Part shown: positions 3,678 to 32,576 of the stretch, in pieces
How the letters are laid out: each line of letters begins with the position of its first letter
How positions within the stretch are numbered: position 1 is the first letter of the stretch
Assembly (NCBI RefSeq): GCF_028583425.1
Contig: NC_072802.1
Span: 14,393,926-14,457,925, forward strand
From: Eublepharis macularius
Taxonomy: Eukaryota; Chordata; Lepidosauria; Squamata; Eublepharidae
DNA: 64,000 bases
Direction of reading: 5' to 3'
Notes under the pieces: generated by a model
Seen by the model: the letters and a program-made list of their open reading frames with translations, nothing else
The model's database searches: none
Told to the model about the DNA's origin: nothing
Translations under genes and position numbers: made by a program

Positions 3678-4297
3678 GCCAGCGTGGTGTGATGGTTAAG
3701 GTGTTAGATTAGGATCCGGAAGACTTAGGTTCAGATCTCCAGTCTGCCATAAAACTCGCTGGGTGACTCTGAGCCAGTTGAGCATGCTCTCTGTGTCTCT
3801 TAGCCTAACCTACCTGAGAGTATTGTTGGGAGCAGGGCTTTTTTTCTGGGAAAAGAGGTGGTGGAACTCAGTGGGTTGCCAGCACAGGGGGCAACTCCTG
3901 GCGGAAGGTAGTTCCCCTGGTACCACATGCATGTGTGCAAAGTGCACGCATGCTCCCAGAACCGCACAATGATGTCACTTTGGGTCAGCTGGAACAAGGG
4001 GGAAGTTTTTAAAAGTTTAAATTGCCCTCGGCGAAAATGGTCACATGGCTGGTGGCCCCGCCCCCTGACCTCCAGACAGAGGGGAGTTTAGATTCCCCTC
4101 CACGCCGCTTCAGCGGCACAGAGGACAATCTCAACTCCCCTCTGTCTGGAGATCAGGGGGCGGGGCCACCGGCCATGTGACCATTTTCAAGAGGTGCTGG
4201 AACTCCGTTCCACTGCGTTCCTGCTGAAAAAAAGCCCTGTTTGGGAGAATGAAACAGAGGAATGGAGAAAGATGTAAGCCACTCTGAACTCAACAGT
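3678..4297 (+). mobile_element. Sauria-type tRNA SINE split by a hAT MITE
   Basis: The head and body at 3678-3832 (AGCCAGCGTGGTGTGATGG onward) stop abruptly at 3832. The matching tail (gaatgatgtaagccactctg-like) resumes at about 4248. The gap is exactly the transposon at 3833-4239 plus one target-site duplication. The SINE is therefore older than the DNA transposon insertion. Confidence 0.6.
3833..4239. mobile_element. hAT-type MITE with CAGGGCTTTTTTT ends, copy A
   Basis: The left end is CAGGGCTTTTTTTC and the right end GAAAAAAAGCCCTG. It is flanked by GTTGGGAG (3825-3832) and TTTGGGAG (4240-4247), an 8-bp duplication with one mismatch, as hAT transposases produce. Inside is a long inverted repeat (about 4037-4110 against 4130-4190) around ggcggggccac, so the RNA or single strand would fold into a hairpin. 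It has no ORF of its own. Copies B and C are at 11925 and 14872. Confidence 0.8.
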
Positions 4298-5965: not shown

Positions 5966-6353
5966 TGAGAGACATTTCTCCAGAGTCACATATTGGGTTG
6001 ACTGAGCTTAGCTTGTGAGTTTTGGTGGAATTAAAAGTTGGATTTTAAATGCTCCTCTACTTTTAACTTTTGTAAGCATTCAAGCCTGGAATTTGGTGTA
6101 GGTCAACAGAACTGCAGAGCATTGCTGCTGGACAAAACACAGGCCATTGATATGTAAATGGAAGAATCACAAAACTTTGTCAGGCTGCAAGGTTTGGCTG
6201 TTAATTGATCAATGGGTCAAAATTTTACCTAAAATGTTGACTGGTGCGTGTGTGAAACAGAGAATGCACACACATGCAAGGCAGAATATTTTTCTTATCT
6301 TGAGTTTTCATACAAGCCAAGGCTGAACGTCCCTCAGCATTTCAACACAAGAT

Positions 6354-10184: not shown

Positions 10185-10395
10185 CCCCTTAAAGACCAAA
10201 TATTAAGGTGCTATTGGACTCAGCTCTTGGTTCTTCGACTGCAGATAGACACGGCTACCCACCCGAATCTGATGAAGGGAGGTCTGCCTCTCCAAGGGCA
10301 TAACCTGAAAATCTAGTTTTATCTCTAAGGTGCTGCTGGATTCGAACCTGGCTCTTCCACTGCAGACCAACACGGCTACCCACCTGAAACTGCGC
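10185..10395 (+). repeat. Tandem partial copies of an R1-like repeat
   Basis: Two successive copies of a related unit each end in a variant of CACGGCTACCCACCTGAA, preceded by AAGGTGCTGCTGGATTCGA or its equivalent. They lie head to tail, unlike the snap-back pairs elsewhere. Confidence 0.5.
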
Positions 10396-10479
10396 GCTGT
10401 AACGTTTGCACACGGCTACGCTTTTATGATTCCAGGGGTGCAACTAACCAAAGGAAACCCCCAAGAACTCAAAACCAAA

Positions 10480-11045
10480 CCTAAAGCCTGGCGAGCCACA
10501 GGCGCGTCGCCCGTCTGGGCGTCCCACTCCCGCTTTCTTCTGGCGCGAAGCGGCGGGCGGGCAGGCGGGCTGCCGGCTCTCGCAGAGGGCCCCCGAACTG
10601 CCTGGCCGCCCAGGGGGCGCCTCCTTACCTGGGCTGCTGTCGGGTGGCCTCGCTCTCGCACGGGGTCGACGGCGGGGCGCCTTCCCGGCTGCGGGGGAAA
10701 GTTCCTCCCTGGCTGGGCACCGCAACGGCGGGCGAAGCTTCGGCCACCTGCCCCTGCGCCGCCCGGCTCGTCTCCAGCCCTTCTGCCGGACCTGCCCAGC
10801 CGCCCCGCGGCGCTCTGCACCGACGCCAAAACCCGGACTGGATCGCCCGCTCGGCGCTCTCGGCCCGAGCAAACGGGGCCCGAGGCGGGGGAAACTCCGG
10901 AGCGGAGCGGCGGGAGGAGGCGGGCGCGCTCCGCGGACCGAGAGAGCCGGCCCAGCGGCAAAGCGAGGCTCGCTCCAGCGGCTCAGGGCGCGCTCTGCAC
11001 TCGCCGCCCCTGGACGGTGGGAAGGCACGGGCGGGCTCAGCACCT
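10480..11045 (-). promoter_or_regulatory. CpG-rich island, candidate divergent promoter with a first-exon donor
   Basis: This stretch is GC-rich with dense CpG, in contrast to the AT-rich flanks. On the minus strand it contains CCCAG|GTAAGG, with the exon's last base at 10629, a near-ideal splice donor. No coding sequence that I recognise precedes the donor, so a non-coding or 5'UTR first exon is the reading. In mammals SMARCA1 is divergent from OCRL, which makes an OCRL promoter a reasonable hypothesis. No OCRL exon was seen in the 10.5 kb downstream on that strand. Long ORFs here on both strands are expected from low stop-codon density in GC-rich DNA. Confidence 0.5.
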
Positions 11046-11048
11046 GGC

Positions 11049-11238
11049 GTTGCCAGCCTCCAGGTGGGGCCCGGAGCTCTCCTGAAGTTATGATGACTGA
11101 TCGCCGAGCAGCAATTCCTTTGGAGGAAACCGCTTCTCTGGAGGGTGGGCTCGATGGCATTATTGCCTGCTCAGGTCCTCCCTTCTTCGGGAATCACCCG
11201 CAAATCTCCAGGAATTCCCCAACCCAGAGTTGGCAGCC
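11049..11238. mobile_element. About 190-bp inverted-repeat element, copy 2
   Basis: It begins GTTGCCAGCCTCCAGG and ends AGAGTTGGCAGCC, approximate inverse termini. The interior is similar to 1672-1873, including tttggagg-aaacc-gcttctctggagggtgg-type sequence. It sits directly against the GC-rich island at 10480-11045. Confidence 0.55.
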
Positions 11239-11384
11239 GGAACGGCACCCACATCTCCCTGGCCAGCCCGCTGGACGTGGAAAGAGGCGGTCAAGATCAT
11301 TCTCCCCTACTACATTTTTTCCTCACAACCCTGCAACGTGGGTTAGGCTGATAGAGAATGCCTAGCCAGCTTTCACATGGTGGT

Positions 11385-16704: not shown

Positions 16705-16833
16705 ATGGACGCCGCCGTTGCCGCCGAGACCGCCGCGGGCCCCGCCAGCCCCAGCCGGCTGGAGGGCGAGGAGGAGCCGTCCACCTCCGCCGCTGCCGCC
16801 GCCACCTCCTCACAGGAATCCAGCCTGGAGGAG
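16705..16833 (+). CDS. SMARCA1: SMARCA1 exon 1 (residues 1-43)
   Basis: This is the first coding exon of the ISWI ATPase SNF2L. The ATG at 16705 opens a frame of 43 codons, MDAAVAAETA onward, rich in Ala, Ser and Glu, that ends GAG|GTAGGG at a phase-0 donor. The region is the poorly conserved acidic N-terminus. The alternation of Ala-rich stretches with Glu and PSTS resembles the human SMARCA1 start more than SMARCA5. The start is chosen because it is the ATG in frame with the donor inside the CpG island, preceded by a good purine context (AAAATGG). The frame reads on past the donor to 17040, but conservation stops at the donor. Confidence 0.85.
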
Positions 16834-25911: not shown

Positions 25912-25926
25912 CAAATCTACATTATT
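25912..25926. repeat. L1 target-site duplication, 3' side
   Basis: CAAATCTACATTATT is repeated exactly at 32070-32084. The last two Ts may belong to the poly(A) tail read on this strand, so the true duplication is 13-15 bp. Confidence 0.9.
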
Positions 25927-26605
25927 TTTTTTTTGAAAATTTTTTTTATTGGGTTAGAATCCGTTATTTTTACATTTACATTCAGTTTTTCCCAAATTTT
26001 TCATTTCTAACCCCCTCCCTTTCCCCCCCTTTTGTTGACTTCCAACAGCTTTCCCACCCTTTGTCCCTTTTCCCTTACTTCTATTAATTTCCTCTATCTA
26101 AAACAGATATACATTCTCCATTATGTTAGGCAGTACATCCTTAACTACTTTTCTTGTTATATACCCAAACTGTAAGTCTTTGTTTCCATCTTGGATAAAC
26201 AATTTATCCCATTTTCCATTTTTAAATATTTCTATATATCATAAACCTATATATCATAAACCATAAAAATCTTACATTTAAATCAAACAATTTGACTTAT
26301 TCTCTATATATTACTCATTCTATCTTTTTATGGTAATTCTATATAGCTCATCACATAGTCAATCAATTTGACTCTTCTGTATATTCAGTTTGGTGCATTA
26401 TATAGATCTTATCAAAGAAAGAAAATACTGTTGGTTACTCAATCCTTATATTTAAACCTTATCATTAATTATTTTCTATCAATGTTCTATCTATTAACCT
26501 ATATATATCTATATATATATCAATCTGTTAATCTAACTGCTTATAAATTCGCATTTATCTCTTCCTCCCCCGGTAAAGTCACCCCCCTCTACATTTTATT
26601 ATACT

Positions 26606-29600
26606 TCAGTAGTTCTCAAACTGCCACAGTTTTCCTCCCACCTCCCATTTCTTCTCCAAATATTGTTTCAGCTTCTCCCAGTCTGTGTTAAACTGCCCTG
26701 AGTCCAGATTTCTCAGTTTTCTTGTCATCTTGTCCATTTCGGCCATGTACAGCAATTTGTAGATCCAATCTTCAATAGTTGGCACTTCTCGTACTTTCCA
26801 TTTTTGCGCATACAAAAGTCTAGCTGCTGCTGTCATATAAAATATTAACGTCCTATGATGGGCTGGAATTCCCTCCATTCCCAAGTTTAGTAGCAGGAGT
26901 TCTGGGTTCTTATTTATTTGAAACTGTAAAATTTCACTCATTTCTCTTATTATTTCCCCCCAGTACTGCCTGGCTACCTCACATGACCACCACATATGAT
27001 AGAGGGAGCCCTCAAGCTTCTTACATTTCCAGCATTTATTAGAAGTGTTCAAATTCCCTAGCGCAATCTTCTTTGGTGTCATGTACCAACGGTAGATCAT
27101 TTTGTAAATGTTCTCTTTAATATTAGTACATGTCGTTGTCTTCATTGTAGTTTTCCACAAGTATTCCCATGCCTCCATTGTTATTTCTTTATTAAAATTT
27201 ATAGCCCATTTCATCATCTGTGTTTTAACTGTCTCGTCCTCGGTATACCATTTCAACAGTACTTGGTATACCTTGGATATTCTTTTCTTGTCTTCTTTAA
27301 GAAGGGTCTGCTCTAGTTCCGAGTTCTCTGTTCGTATACCCCCCTTTACAGAGTCCAAATTATATAAGTCTCTGATCTGTCTATACTGGAACCAGTCGTA
27401 ATTGGGTGATAGTTCCTCTTGCGTCTTTATTCTAAGTTTAGATGCTTCAGTTTTAGTTATTTCTTTGTACGTTAAACATTGTTGTTCATTATCAACAGCT
27501 CTCGGGTCTATCACCTCATATGGAACCACCCACAAGGGGGTTCCTTCTTGTAAGTAAATTCTGTACTTCTTCCAGATTATATATAGACTTCTCCGTACAA
27601 AATGGTGCAGGAACATCGAGTTGACCTTTACTTTGTCATGCCATAGGTATGCGTGCCATCCAAAAATTTTTTTATATCCCTCTAGGGCTAATAGTTTCTT
27701 GTTCTTTAGTGTCATCCACTCTTTCAACCAAACTAGGCAGATTGCATCATGGTAAAGTCTCAGATTGGGCAGTTGCATTCCGCCTCTTTCCTTTGCATCT
27801 TGTAAAACTTTTACTTTCACTCGAGGCTTCTTGCCTGCCCAAACAAAATCTGATATTTTCCTCTGCCATTTTTCAAATTGTTTAGAGTCTCTGATGATTG
27901 GTATTGTCTGTAGCAAAAACATTACTCTTGGTAACACATTCATCTTAACTGCTGCAATCCTGCCCAACCATGACAAATTCAGTCTATTCCATTTGATCAA
28001 GTCTCTCTCTATCTGAGTCCATAGTTTTTCATAGTTGTTTTTGAATAAGTCTATATTCTTTGCAGTCAGTTCAACTCCCAAATATTTCACTTTGCTTGTT
28101 ACTTCACAATCCGTTGTTTCTGTTAACAATTGTTGTTTCTGCTTAATCATATTTTTACATAATATCTTTGACTTCTTTTTGTTGATATAAAAACCTGCCA
28201 AGTCTCCAAACTCCTTAATCTTATCTATCACTTTTGGCATGTTCTCCAATGGGTCCTCTACAATTAACATTATGTCATCCGCGAATGCTCTGACCTTGTA
28301 TGAATAGTCCTTTATTTTTATTCCATGAATTTCCTCACCTTGACGTATTTGTATCATCAGAATCTCCAATACTAAAATGAACAACAATGGAGATAACGGG
28401 CAACCTTGTCTTGTTCCTTTACTAATCGTCAATTTCTTGGTCAATTCATCATTCACTACAATTGCTGCAGTCTGGTCTCTGTAAATTTCCTTAATTGCTC
28501 TGATGAATCTTTCTCCCAATTGTAGCTTTTCCATAGTGGCAAACATAAAGTCCCAGTTTAAATTGTCAAACACTTTTTCAGCGTCTACAAAGAAGAAACC
28601 AACCTCTTTGTCACAACGCTTATCATAATATTCAATAGCATTGATCACTGTCCTTAAATTGTCTCTTATTTGTCTGTCTGGCAAAAAGCCTGCTTGTTCC
28701 TCCTCTATGACTTCCGAGAGCCACCCCTTCAATCTCTCCGCCAATATCTTCGCAAAAATTTTATAGTCATTATTGAGTAGTGATATAGGTCTATAATTTT
28801 TCACGTTAGTCAGGTCTTGGCCCTCTTTTGGGATCAATGATATATTCGCTTCACTCCAAGTATCTGGAATCCTTTGATCCCTAAAAACTCCATTCATCAC
28901 CTCTTTTAGGAATGGTGCCAGTTCATTGGCCATTGTCTTATAAAATTTAGCCGTAAGTCCATCTGGCCCTGGCGCCTTTCCTAGATTTGCGGATTGTATT
29001 GCCTTGCTTATTTCCTCGTCAGTTACTTCACTGTTCAACTTATTTCTCCAAGCTTCCGAGATTTCTGGAAGTTTGGTTTTCTCCAAATATGATGCTATTG
29101 ATTCTTTGTTTACTTCTTTTTTATTATACAGCTTAGCGTAGAATTTATAAAAGGCTCTACTAATGGTAGTCTGCTCCAAATACGTTTTGTTATCTTCACA
29201 GATTTTATTTATTATTTTCTTTTCCCTTTTCTTCTTCAATTGCCATGCCAGGTATTTCCCAGGTTTGTTAGCACCCTCAAACGCTTTTTGATTCAGTCTT
29301 TTAAGATTCCACTCCAATTCTTTATTGCTCATTGCTGTTAGCTGTTCTTGAAGTATTTTGATTTCCTGGTATACCTTCTTTTTCCCTGGTCTCTTTTTTA
29401 GCTGTATTTCTTTGGCTTTTATTTTCTCCTCAATCTCTTGTCTTTTCTCCTCTTTCTTCTTTCTTGCTCTACCATTTAAGTCCATTAGTATGCCCCTTAC
29501 AACCGCCTTGTACGCATCCCAAACTTTGTTGGTTGGTACTTCTTTATTCACGTTGTATTGTATAAAAAACTTTGTCTCTCTTCTCAGTATTTCCATATTC

Positions 29601-30367
29601 TCTCTTTCCTGTAACAAGTCCTCATTTATTCTCCATGCTTTCCTTTTTCTCCTTTTTCCAAATTTCCACATAATTGGGTTGTGATCTGAGCCTACCATCG
29701 GCATTATTTCTACCTCCTTAGTCCATAACGCTAAGTCTTTTGAGGCCCAGATCATATCAGTTCTTGATAATGTAGAATGCCTTGCAGAATAGAAAGTAAA
29801 CTGTCTACTTTTAGGATATTCTCTCCTCCATACATCTTCGAGAGTCTCTTGTTGAATCAACTCAAAAAAAAACTTTGGTAATAGTCCTCTTTTCTTTTGT
29901 GCCGTTGTAGTCTTTTTGTCTAGCTCCAAATCTGTCACTCCATTGAAGTCTCCAGCAAGAATTATCTGGTCATATACAAGATCGTCTAAATGCTTCCTTA
30001 AATCCTCAAAGAAGCTTTCTTTTGCACCGTTAGGTGCATAAAGTCCGACTACCAACACTCTCTTTAAATTCCAAATGCATTCCACTGCTACAAATCTAGC
30101 TTCCACATCTCTCATAACAAATTTTGGCTGTAGCTCCTCTTTTATATACAACACCACTCCTCTTTTTTTCTTGTTAGAGGCCGCTACAAATTCTTTGCCC
30201 AGTTTTCCAGATTTTAAATATTTTACATCCTGTTTTCTAATATGGGTCTCTTGCAAACAAACAATATCACATTTTTGTTTTAGTAGCCAATGAAAAATAT
30301 TTTTCCTCTTATTCGGTGAGTTTAGTCCATTTACATTCCAAGATAATACTTTACACTCCATACTCAT
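26606..30367 (-). CDS. L1 ORF2: endonuclease and reverse transcriptase (1253 aa)
   Basis: This protein nicks target DNA and copies the L1 RNA at the nick (target-primed reverse transcription). The AP-type endonuclease spans residues 1-235. Visible catalytic positions are N13 region (SWNVNGL), E40 (LQETH), Y110, D140 and N142 (GDFNG), D204 (SRTDMIW) and S227-D228-H229. Each matches a required residue in L1 endonucleases. The RT domain (about 440-800) has KAPGPDGL, the DAEKVFD box and the FADD active site at 695-698. Near the C-terminus CWKCKK...HMWWSC is the Cys/His knuckle (CX2CX8HX4C). Length is typical for L1. The start codon overlaps the ORF1 stop as ATGA (30364-30367), so translation by termination-reinitiation is plausible. 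No stop or frameshift is seen. Confidence 0.95.
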   Translation of the reverse strand: MSMECKVLSWNVNGLNSPNKRKNIFHWLLKQKCDIVCLQETHIRKQDVKYLKSGKLGKEFVAASNKKKRGVVLYIKEELQPKFVMRDVEARFVAVECIWNLKRVLVVGLYAPNGAKESFFEDLRKHLDDLVYDQIILAGDFNGVTDLELDKKTTTAQKKRGLLPKFFFELIQQETLEDVWRREYPKSRQFTFYSARHSTLSRTDMIWASKDLALWTKEVEIMPMVGSDHNPIMWKFGKRRKRKAWRINEDLLQERENMEILRRETKFFIQYNVNKEVPTNKVWDAYKAVVRGILMDLNGRARKKKEEKRQEIEEKIKAKEIQLKKRPGKKKVYQEIKILQEQLTAMSNKELEWNLKRLNQKAFEGANKPGKYLAWQLKKKREKKIINKICEDNKTYLEQTTISRAFYKFYAKLYNKKEVNKESIASYLEKTKLPEISEAWRNKLNSEVTDEEISKAIQSANLGKAPGPDGLTAKFYKTMANELAPFLKEVMNGVFRDQRIPDTWSEANISLIPKEGQDLTNVKNYRPISLLNNDYKIFAKILAERLKGWLSEVIEEEQAGFLPDRQIRDNLRTVINAIEYYDKRCDKEVGFFFVDAEKVFDNLNWDFMFATMEKLQLGERFIRAIKEIYRDQTAAIVVNDELTKKLTISKGTRQGCPLSPLLFILVLEILMIQIRQGEEIHGIKIKDYSYKVRAFADDIMLIVEDPLENMPKVIDKIKEFGDLAGFYINKKKSKILCKNMIKQKQQLLTETTDCEVTSKVKYLGVELTAKNIDLFKNNYEKLWTQIERDLIKWNRLNLSWLGRIAAVKMNVLPRVMFLLQTIPIIRDSKQFEKWQRKISDFVWAGKKPRVKVKVLQDAKERGGMQLPNLRLYHDAICLVWLKEWMTLKNKKLLALEGYKKIFGWHAYLWHDKVKVNSMFLHHFVRRSLYIIWKKYRIYLQEGTPLWVVPYEVIDPRAVDNEQQCLTYKEITKTEASKLRIKTQEELSPNYDWFQYRQIRDLYNLDSVKGGIRTENSELEQTLLKEDKKRISKVYQVLLKWYTEDETVKTQMMKWAINFNKEITMEAWEYLWKTTMKTTTCTNIKENIYKMIYRWYMTPKKIALGNLNTSNKCWKCKKLEGSLYHMWWSCEVARQYWGEIIREMSEILQFQINKNPELLLLNLGMEGIPAHHRTLIFYMTAAARLLYAQKWKVREVPTIEDWIYKLLYMAEMDKMTRKLRNLDSGQFNTDWEKLKQYLEKKWEVGGKLWQFENY

Positions 30368-31251
30368 AGTTTTGTTGGTAAGTCTTTTTCATTGTCCTTA
30401 ATAAATCGCTCCATCTCTCGCTCAGATCTGATGCGTTTTTTTGCCCCTCCAAACTCAAAGGACACTCCTTCCGGTAGCTCCCATCTGTACCTGATTTTCA
30501 TGTCCTTCAAAATCTGAATTAGCACTTTGTATTTTTTCCGGTCCAATAACACTGATCTGGGCAGTTCCTTCATTATAATGATCGTCTTGCCATCAATCTC
30601 CAATGGATCTTGAAACTGTTTTGTCACAATCCTCTCTTTCATATTTCGTGTTGTAAACTGCACAATCACATCCCTTGGTAATTTCCTCTGGGTTGCAATT
30701 CTCGAATTCACACAGTATGCCACATCTAGGATAGCCACAACTTCCTCCTCCTCCTTCCCCAGGTATTCAGCCAACACCTCAGTCATCTGTTCTTGCGCTG
30801 ACTTCCCTTCCACTTCTGGCAGGCCACGAAAACGTAGCTGCTTCTCCATATGTTTAGTTTCTGCAACTGACATTCTCCCCTTCACCAATCTCATCTCTGT
30901 TTGTTGCATGTCTGCTAAATTCTCCATCGCGTCTTCTACTGTTTTGACTCTCTGCTGCGTTCCTTGTAGTTCACTTCGTATTGTTTCCATACCTTTTTTC
31001 ACTTCTGACAGCTCCGATTTTACTGTCTGTGTAACCTCTTTAACCTCTTTTATCAGCTCCAATTTCGTGTCCTTGAGTTCTTTAATCATATCTAAAAGTT
31101 TTTTATCCAAGTTTTTATCCAGGTTTTCTATTGCCGATTGCCACTCTTTTTTTGACATTGTGGGGCTTGCTTTAGCTCGCTCCCACGAATCCGCTCTCTT
31201 CCTTAACTCCGTGGCGTAAAATTTAACGTTTTTCTGTTTTAAATGTCCCAA
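30364..31251 (-). CDS. L1 ORF1: RNA-binding coiled-coil protein (295 aa)
   Basis: The L1 ORF1 protein binds element RNA as a trimer and is needed with ORF2 for retrotransposition. Residues 1-40 are basic, residues about 40-135 form a heptad-rich coiled coil (IENLDKNLDKKLLDMIKELK onward), and residues about 137-205 form the RRM beginning KQLRFRGLPE with ...RDVIVQF. A basic C-terminal domain follows to 295. The size is close to that of other vertebrate L1 ORF1 proteins. It ends with the TGA that overlaps the ORF2 start by 4 bp. The start at 31251 is the first ATG of the open frame after the 5'UTR. Confidence 0.92.
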   Translation of the reverse strand: MGHLKQKNVKFYATELRKRADSWERAKASPTMSKKEWQSAIENLDKNLDKKLLDMIKELKDTKLELIKEVKEVTQTVKSELSEVKKGMETIRSELQGTQQRVKTVEDAMENLADMQQTEMRLVKGRMSVAETKHMEKQLRFRGLPEVEGKSAQEQMTEVLAEYLGKEEEEVVAILDVAYCVNSRIATQRKLPRDVIVQFTTRNMKERIVTKQFQDPLEIDGKTIIIMKELPRSVLLDRKKYKVLIQILKDMKIRYRWELPEGVSFEFGGAKKRIRSEREMERFIKDNEKDLPTKL

Positions 31252-32069
31252 TCTTCTTGTAAAAATTAAATTTTAAAGAGTCCAAAATGTCGGGCGTCTT
31301 TTCTCTATGGTTTCTCTATGATTTTGTAATCCAAGATGGCCTACTTCCTCTTCCGCTGAAGCCGCGACCCTTCCCCTTTCAAAAATGGCGATTCCCTACT
31401 TCCTGTCCTCCGGCAAGGGCCGCTTCTCTCCAGCCACTCTATTGTTATTACACACTTCCTGTCTCCCGTCTTCCCACAGCAGAACTCGCGATGGTGTCTT
31501 TTTCTCACAGCTCCAAAGCCACAGGTATTCAAAACAATAGTCCGATTTCTTTAATAACTTCTTTAAACTTAGTCTCTTTTCAAATACAATTCCTGCCGAG
31601 TCTTCCCCTCCTTTTCACTAGTCTGTTGCAGTTTAAAAATCTACTTTTTTTCTTCTCTGTTTTTATCAATCTGTCCCGTATCAGAAGATAGTGATCTTTA
31701 CCTTCTCTTCACTTTTCTCGGGTTGTAATCGCTGTTTCGATTTTAAGTTCTCCTCTCAGCTTCTTCCCCCAATCGAAGCTTGGGTATGTAGGTCTTATGC
31801 CAGCCGAATTGGCCCCAAAACTGCCGCAGAGATTATAGCCGACCCGTCGCAAGGTGGGACCTCAAGGATCGGGAGGGGACCCGTTGTGTAGAGCCCCCCC
31901 TCGTCCGAGATCTAGCTCACCCTAGGGTCTTGAGCGTTCTTTGCCTGCTCCCCGCCTGAGAGCAGTCGGCCGCGGGCTATTTTCACCCCATCGGCCGGTT
32001 AAAACGGCAGTCCGGTCAGCTCCGCAAATGGAGCTGCGTTAGACCTCCATGGATCCCAAACCGGAAGTC
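31252..32069 (-). promoter_or_regulatory. L1 5'UTR with internal promoter
   Basis: The 818 bp before ORF1 are GC-rich at the 5' end (31850-32069) with several CpGs. The end is sharply defined by the target-site duplication. L1 transcription starts from an internal promoter in this region. No specific factor site is claimed. Antisense ORFs on the plus strand here (for example 31287-31691) have no recognised product. Confidence 0.75.
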
Positions 32070-32084
32070 CAAATCTACATTATT
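32070..32084. repeat. L1 target-site duplication, 5' side
   Basis: CAAATCTACATTATT matches 25912-25926 exactly and marks the end of the L1 5'UTR. Confidence 0.9.
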
Positions 32085-32489: not shown

Positions 32490-32576
32490 AAAAATGATCC
32501 TCCGTTTCAACTGAAACCTCCTCCAAAGGCATCTAAACATGAAAAAGAAGTTGATCCAGAGTATGAAGAGAAAATG
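32490..32576 (+). CDS. SMARCA1: SMARCA1 exon 2 (residues 44-72)
   Basis: Acceptor TTTACAG and donor GTAAGT bound 29 codons in phase 0. The sequence KNDPPFQLKPPPKASKHEKE and then VDPEYEEKM matches the SNF2L N-terminal segment. The FQLK and the E-K-E-(M/V)-DPEYEEKM pattern is the paralogue-specific form: SMARCA5 has PDPTYEEKM instead. The segment lies before the conserved FAHFIQP motif and is highly charged. It lies 406 bp downstream of the L1 insertion in intron 1. Confidence 0.95.

Follow-up and report, generated by a model that had tools for sequence, protein, structure and literature searches.

A complete, young L1 element antisense within an intron of SMARCA1 in the leopard gecko

An intron of the SMARCA1 gene of the leopard gecko, Eublepharis macularius, contains a long sequence with the features of a LINE-1 (long interspersed nuclear element 1, L1) retrotransposon, and the locus raises the question of whether this is a complete and recent insertion and, if so, whether it is itself an active element and whether it matters to the gene that carries it. 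The stretch analysed, referred to here as the window, comprises 64,000 nucleotides of contig NC_072802.1 (assembly GCF_028583425.1, positions 14,393,926 to 14,457,925 of the forward strand). The window L1 is a real, young and complete element of a known kind, and it almost certainly represents a young, abundant L1 lineage, a full-length copy of which entered the SMARCA1 intron by target-primed reverse transcription.

Boundaries, reading frames and sister copies

Several features establish the extent of the element. First, it is flanked by a 15-bp target-site duplication, CAAATCTACATTATT, which is identical at the two ends and is not extendable on either side; no third match is present in the 64-kb window, even when two mismatches are permitted, and 100 shuffles produced no exact match. 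Second, its ends are shared with related copies. We fetched 22 other loci from the genome by their likeness to the 3′ or 5′ untranslated region (UTR) of the window L1, and in 11 of these the alignment begins at element position 1 or 2 and runs through to the 3′ end, with 96.8–99.5% identity; because these copies start there, the 5′ end of the window L1 is considered complete, and its 5′ UTR is alignable over the whole length in these other full-length copies. The 11 were compared with the window L1 as a set of 12 copies. A further eight of the 22 fetched loci are 5′-truncated, and three were not counted as full-length (L029, with an internal deletion; L025, with separate matches, one on each strand; and L037, truncated at the borders of the fetched segment). 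Third, the element terminates in a tail of 10 A residues following AATAAA, two of which belong to the duplication. The direct repeat, the complete 5′ UTR and the poly(A) remnant, all reported in a first-pass annotation made from the letters of the window, are thus borne out.

The same annotation described two uninterrupted open reading frames (ORFs), and both are indeed open, although the first is shorter than had been proposed. ORF2 is free of stop codons over the 1,253 amino acids previously assigned to it and contains the signature motifs of an endonuclease and a reverse transcriptase (RT), in line with the earlier statement that the catalytic residues are in place, the roles of these residues being ones that we take as given. 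It matches the Pfam families RVT_1 (E 3.2e-38) and Exo_endo_phos (E 7.1e-15), and its best solved relative is human L1 ORF2p, to which it aligns along residues 6–1237 (E 2.9e-165, compared with 4.4e-26 for R2). From these matches ORF2 is predicted to be a protein with an apurinic/apyrimidinic (AP)-type endonuclease and an RT closest to the L1 clade. ORF1 had been given 295 amino acids on the basis of a TTG start codon, which is accepted by the bacterial translation table; the stretch upstream of the ATG at 31158 is interrupted in two other sub-lineages, each by a stop at a different codon, and is therefore unlikely to be coding, and we reject the TTG start in favour of a 264-amino-acid ORF1. 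This ATG-initiated frame is intact in 11 of the 12 full-length copies, the exception being L017, in which it is broken early. ORF1 matches human L1 ORF1p chains (E 1.4e-7) and, with its predicted coiled coil and RRM/C-terminal RNA-binding domains, fits the L1-clade type; a point against this assignment is that the match of ORF1 to Pfam Transposase_22, the L1 RNA-binding family, is under the cut-off (E 0.017).

Near-identical relatives of the window L1 are numerous. The genome searches score the best candidates only, and the counts are consequently lower bounds that are biased to good copies. A search with the 5′ UTR yielded 3,013 first-look candidates, of which 40 were scored; every one of the 40 reached an identity of 98% or more across no fewer than 768 of the 770 bases. 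For ORF1, 145 places were scored (of 20,909), and 143 of them are stop-free with identities of 98–100%; for ORF2, 34 of 37 (of 78,258; window included) are stop-free over 1,253 amino acids and at least 98% alike. The expectation voiced earlier that most L1 copies are broken is therefore not met with at the best-matching places of this genome. Both ORFs are intact in eight of the 12 full-length copies (window included), and the sister copies differ in their duplications and flanks, which argues against their being segmental duplicates of one insertion. Judged by these likenesses, the window L1 is one of many near-identical copies in the genome, and hence an ordinary one.

The ends of these copies are informative about how they were inserted. 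Duplications and tails were scored in two sets of 21 and 20 copies (L037 and L038 were excluded), and a target-site duplication of at least 9 bp is present in 33 of the 41 copies examined; four copies of the first set lack one, and in the second set three have no 3′ end where it is expected and one has no duplication. Across the 33 duplications there is a T at position −2 in 24, a pyrimidine at −1 in 30, and an A-rich segment at +1 to +5, with the proviso that an A adjoining the tail was scored as duplication, a rule that by itself precludes A at −1 and biases position +1 towards A. We claim from this pattern a putative cleavage context of T-pyrimidine/A-rich. A stronger preference for TC/AAAA was considered when C occupied −1 in 11 of the first 17 duplications, and was rejected once all 33 were scored (C 17, T 13, G 3). 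The A tails are short, with 4–17 A in 38 copies (window included), and this is also true of copies that are less than 1% diverged from that of the window. Finally, four of the 16 second-set copies with a duplication (L052, L054, L056 and L082) show between one and four additional Gs ahead of the 5′ GACTTCCGG; such added Gs are expected where a capped RNA is copied.

A plausible course of events is one in which the source RNA would begin at the G of GACTTCCGG and would be translated into ORF1p and ORF2p, the latter perhaps through the ATGA stop-start overlap between the two frames. The ORF2p endonuclease would then nick an A-rich site, the poly(A) would prime reverse transcription, and joining of the second strand would leave the 15-bp duplication. 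Once in place, the intronic L1 is presumably spliced out and passive. The coordinates of the element and of the neighbouring exons are listed in Table 1; a scan of the window against Rfam returned no matches at the gathering threshold.

Table 1. Coordinates within the window of the L1 element, its parts and the two flanking coding exons.
Feature	Position	Strand	Remarks
SMARCA1 coding exon 1	16705..16833	+	Placed by eye; ends at GT donor
Target-site duplication at element 3′ end	25912..25926		Exact 15-bp match to 32070-32084
Complete L1, 6,143 bp	25927..32069	-	Ends same as in 11 other full-length copies
3′ end: AATAAA, short A/T run, A tail	25927..25950	-	8 A, plus 2 A within the duplication
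Two G-quadruplex-type motifs near 3′ UTR end	26011..26074	-	Element 5996-6017 and 6041-6059; pattern search
ORF2, 1,253 amino acids	26606..30367	-	Endonuclease, reverse transcriptase, Cys-rich C-terminus (predicted)
ATGA, ORF2 start overlapping ORF1 stop	30364..30367	-	12/12 full-length copies and 3/3 further ORF1 loci
ORF1, 264 amino acids from ATG at 31158	30364..31158	-	Coiled coil and RNA-binding part (predicted)
5′ UTR, 911 bp	31159..32069	-	CpG observed/expected 0.90; ETS-type motif at position 3
Target-site duplication at element 5′ end	32070..32084		Exact 15-bp match to 25912-25926
SMARCA1 coding exon 2	32490..32576	+	Placed by eye; AG acceptor

Age, coding changes and activity of the window L1

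The first-pass annotation proposed a recent insertion, to be checked by aligning the element with other copies in the same genome, and the alignment agrees with the proposal. The nearest sampled copy, L017, is 0.46% different from the window L1, and the two group together with a support of 0.997. There are 14 substitutions in the 6,143 bp of the window L1 that are not shared with L017, 12 of which are unique within the 12 copies; changes were assigned to a branch only at sites where at least nine of the other 10 copies agree. At a substitution rate of ~1e-9 per site per year the age of the insertion is ~2.3 million years. At the rate of 1.1e-8 given in a figure legend of PMC13148402 it is ~0.2 million years, and any closer copies outside the sample would lower the age. 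Between intact copies the ratio of nonsynonymous to synonymous substitution rates (dN/dS) is 0.03–0.21 (28 pairs for each ORF), which shows that the propagating L1 lineage is under purifying selection.

Given a young element with open frames, the window L1 could itself be a still-active source element, and this is the alternative that fares best. It is consistent with the open state of both ORFs, the retention of the signature motifs, the complete 5′ UTR and the small age of the copy. However, several observations make it unlikely in our estimation. First, the coding changes common to the window L1 and L017, which predate their split, comprise no missense and eight silent changes, whereas those on the window's own branch comprise nine missense and one silent (Fisher p 0.0004), where about 75% missense is the neutral expectation; the coding changes private to the window within the 12 copies are eight missense and none silent. 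Second, some of the missense changes fall at conserved positions. Residue 599 of ORF2, inside RT motif A, is Val in the window L1, whereas all 17 further loci that span this position, and human ORF2p, have Ala; residue 203 is Thr directly before an Asp that is presumably an endonuclease active-site residue. Third, none of the compared loci carries any of the 12 changes that are private to the window L1 within the 12 copies, and there is no evident daughter (the ORF1 change, Cys at residue 149, recurs in L039 and L040, two more distant loci). Fourth, CpG transitions account for six of the 14 changes by a hand count from their contexts, as in methylated DNA.

Because the changes on its own branch are nearly all missense, the open frames do not show that the window L1 is active. 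The possible retrotransposition competence raised in the first-pass annotation is accordingly retained as far as the intact frames and signature motifs are concerned, and is put in doubt by the nine missense changes among ten, of which one lies in RT motif A and one beside the endonuclease Asp. We favour instead the view that the window L1 is probably a recently made offspring of an active lineage that has been unselected since its insertion.

A number of points weigh against this view of an unselected offspring and are to be set beside the evidence above. The contrast between silent and missense changes (eight of eight versus nine of ten) rests on 18 changes. Two of the eight shared silent changes (element positions 3853 and 4564) are present in one further copy, and both the missense change at ORF2 residue 203 and the single silent site of the window share their base with L026. 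The Cys at ORF1 residue 149 is probably tolerated, as it is present in L039 and L040, in which ORF1 is intact. Over the whole set of 12 copies, private changes comprise 80 missense and 95 silent versus 13 and 86 for shared changes (p 1.7e-8), so that the private changes are 46% missense, under the neutral 75%, and those private to L038, L031 and L030 are mostly silent. We tentatively attribute the excess of silent private changes to substitutions that arose before insertion, along long branches represented by one sampled copy.

The host gene and possible effects on it

In an ISWI ATPase gene on the plus strand, the intron that follows coding exon 1 and precedes coding exon 2 contains the L1 in antisense orientation; the 5′ end of the element faces exon 2, which begins ~405 bp past the duplication at that end. 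Exon 3 starts at ~36494 and more exons follow to ~47.7 kb, their ends having been placed by eye with splice signals. A 73-amino-acid exon of the ISWI gene has 11 matches in the genome, of which one other is close, a paralogue on contig 10 that is 93% identical. Since this paralogue matches human SMARCA5 better than the window gene does (153.2 versus 144.9 bits), we take the window gene as SMARCA1. The exon structure and the existence of a distinct SMARCA5 paralogue on a different contig agree with the position given in the first-pass annotation, antisense in SMARCA1 intron 1, a numbering that presumes no non-coding exon upstream. Two additional features of the region were noted. Besides the CpG-rich stretch at SMARCA1 exon 1, there is a second one ~5 kb farther upstream, at 10251-11250, and a similar degenerate translation is found at both ~22599 and 35419 on the minus strand, probably reflecting another dispersed repeat.

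An alteration of SMARCA1 expression by the L1, for example through a 5′ UTR antisense promoter reading into exon 2 or through premature polyadenylation, appears quite improbable. It would be favoured by the orientation and proximity of the 5′ UTR end relative to exon 2, and by two antisense-oriented YY1-type motifs, but motif matches are no evidence of function. The 5′ UTR also contains an antisense ORF of 134 amino acids (31287-31691, plus strand), whose length is unchanged in 10 of the 12 copies; its changes comprise 30 missense and five silent, a lack of coding constraint that argues against the expression effect and led us to reject the ORF as an ORF0-like gene. The L1 is most likely neutral for SMARCA1. 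An assembly chimera or mis-joined repeat is considered extremely improbable, for although many near-identical copies are able to mislead assemblers, the exact 15-bp duplication occurs in the window at both junctions only, the cleavage context is of the L1 type, the exons of one gene are in order on either side, and the window L1 has private substitutions of its own.

The ORF1/ORF2 junction and comparison with known L1 systems

The start codon of ORF2 overlaps the stop codon of ORF1 in the sequence ATGA in all 15 copies examined, and two of the three further ORF1 loci among them come from a lineage in which the ORF1 C-terminus is different. The RNA structure predicted for 301 nt at this junction is no better than that of shuffles (z 0.63). 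The arrangement suggests that ORF2 may be translated by reinitiation at the ATGA. In the literature on squamate L1 elements we found no title on the ORF1/ORF2 junction, a statement that is limited to titles and to an incomplete coverage of papers, and among titles on LINE-1 and the leopard gecko there was none on this L1 lineage. A broader picture, which we put forward tentatively as possible though not probable, is that an L1 lineage with numerous stop-free copies would have expanded very recently in this genome, that its ORF2p would be made through ATGA stop-start reinitiation directly at the ORF1 stop (human L1, by contrast, has a spacer to cross) and that its insertions would carry very short A tails, the intronic copy being one natural readout of this strategy.

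The locus documents one site of a very young lizard L1 expansion, and helps both to mark polymorphic insertions and to compare the ways in which L1 elements are translated; in that comparison the ATGA overlap, as opposed to a spacer, is a mildly notable feature of the gecko L1 lineage. The contrast between shared silent changes and the missense changes along the branch leading to the window L1 also provides a small example that open frames alone do not prove an active copy.

Comparison with human LINE-1 reveals both likenesses and differences. ORF2 is aligned almost end to end and ORF1 over the coiled-coil end and the RNA-binding part, and the two elements have the hallmarks of target-primed insertion in common. 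The gecko ORF1 has 264 amino acids, whereas human ORF1 has 338, and the gecko L1 also differs in its A tails of 4–17. At the junction, mammalian (human) L1 has a 63-nt spacer between ORF1 and ORF2, as stated in a passage of PMC5972666, in place of the ATGA overlap of the gecko L1. The same source refers to the stop-start translational coupling of SART1, a non-long-terminal-repeat element of the silkworm (Kojima et al. 2005, via PMC5972666), in which the ORF1 stop likewise overlaps the ORF2 start. The two systems differ, according to that account, in the overlap itself (UAAUG in SART1, AUGA in the window L1) and in the requirement of SART1 for a downstream RNA structure, whereas the window L1 junction folds like shuffles. 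The cleavage site reported for bovine L1 in a portion of PMC13295347, 5′-TT/AAAA-3′, is close to the T-pyrimidine/A-rich pattern of the gecko copies.

Among squamates, CR1, BovB and L2 are the LINEs described as usually abundant and active in a passage of PMC6050309, and full-length and polymorphic L1 insertions are well documented for Anolis, for which the relevant section of PMC5389967 lists 20 L1 families with elements of 5.2–6.8 kb and 2,508 polymorphic insertions, 1,089 of them full-length. The gecko L1 is like the long-5′ UTR families L1AC1-15 of Anolis carolinensis (Novick et al. 2009, Boissinot and Sookdeo 2016, cited in PMC5389967) in belonging to the L1 clade, in having a length within the 5.2–6.8 kb range and a 5′ UTR in the 800–1,500 bp class, and in the mixture of full-length and 5′-truncated copies. 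It differs in being of a gecko lineage, and is likened to these families by described features, not by sequence. The copy counts differ as well: the published anole genome has 170 full-length L1 copies spread over 20 families by the account in PMC5389967, whereas in the gecko 34 of 37 scored ORF2 places are stop-free and at least 98% alike.

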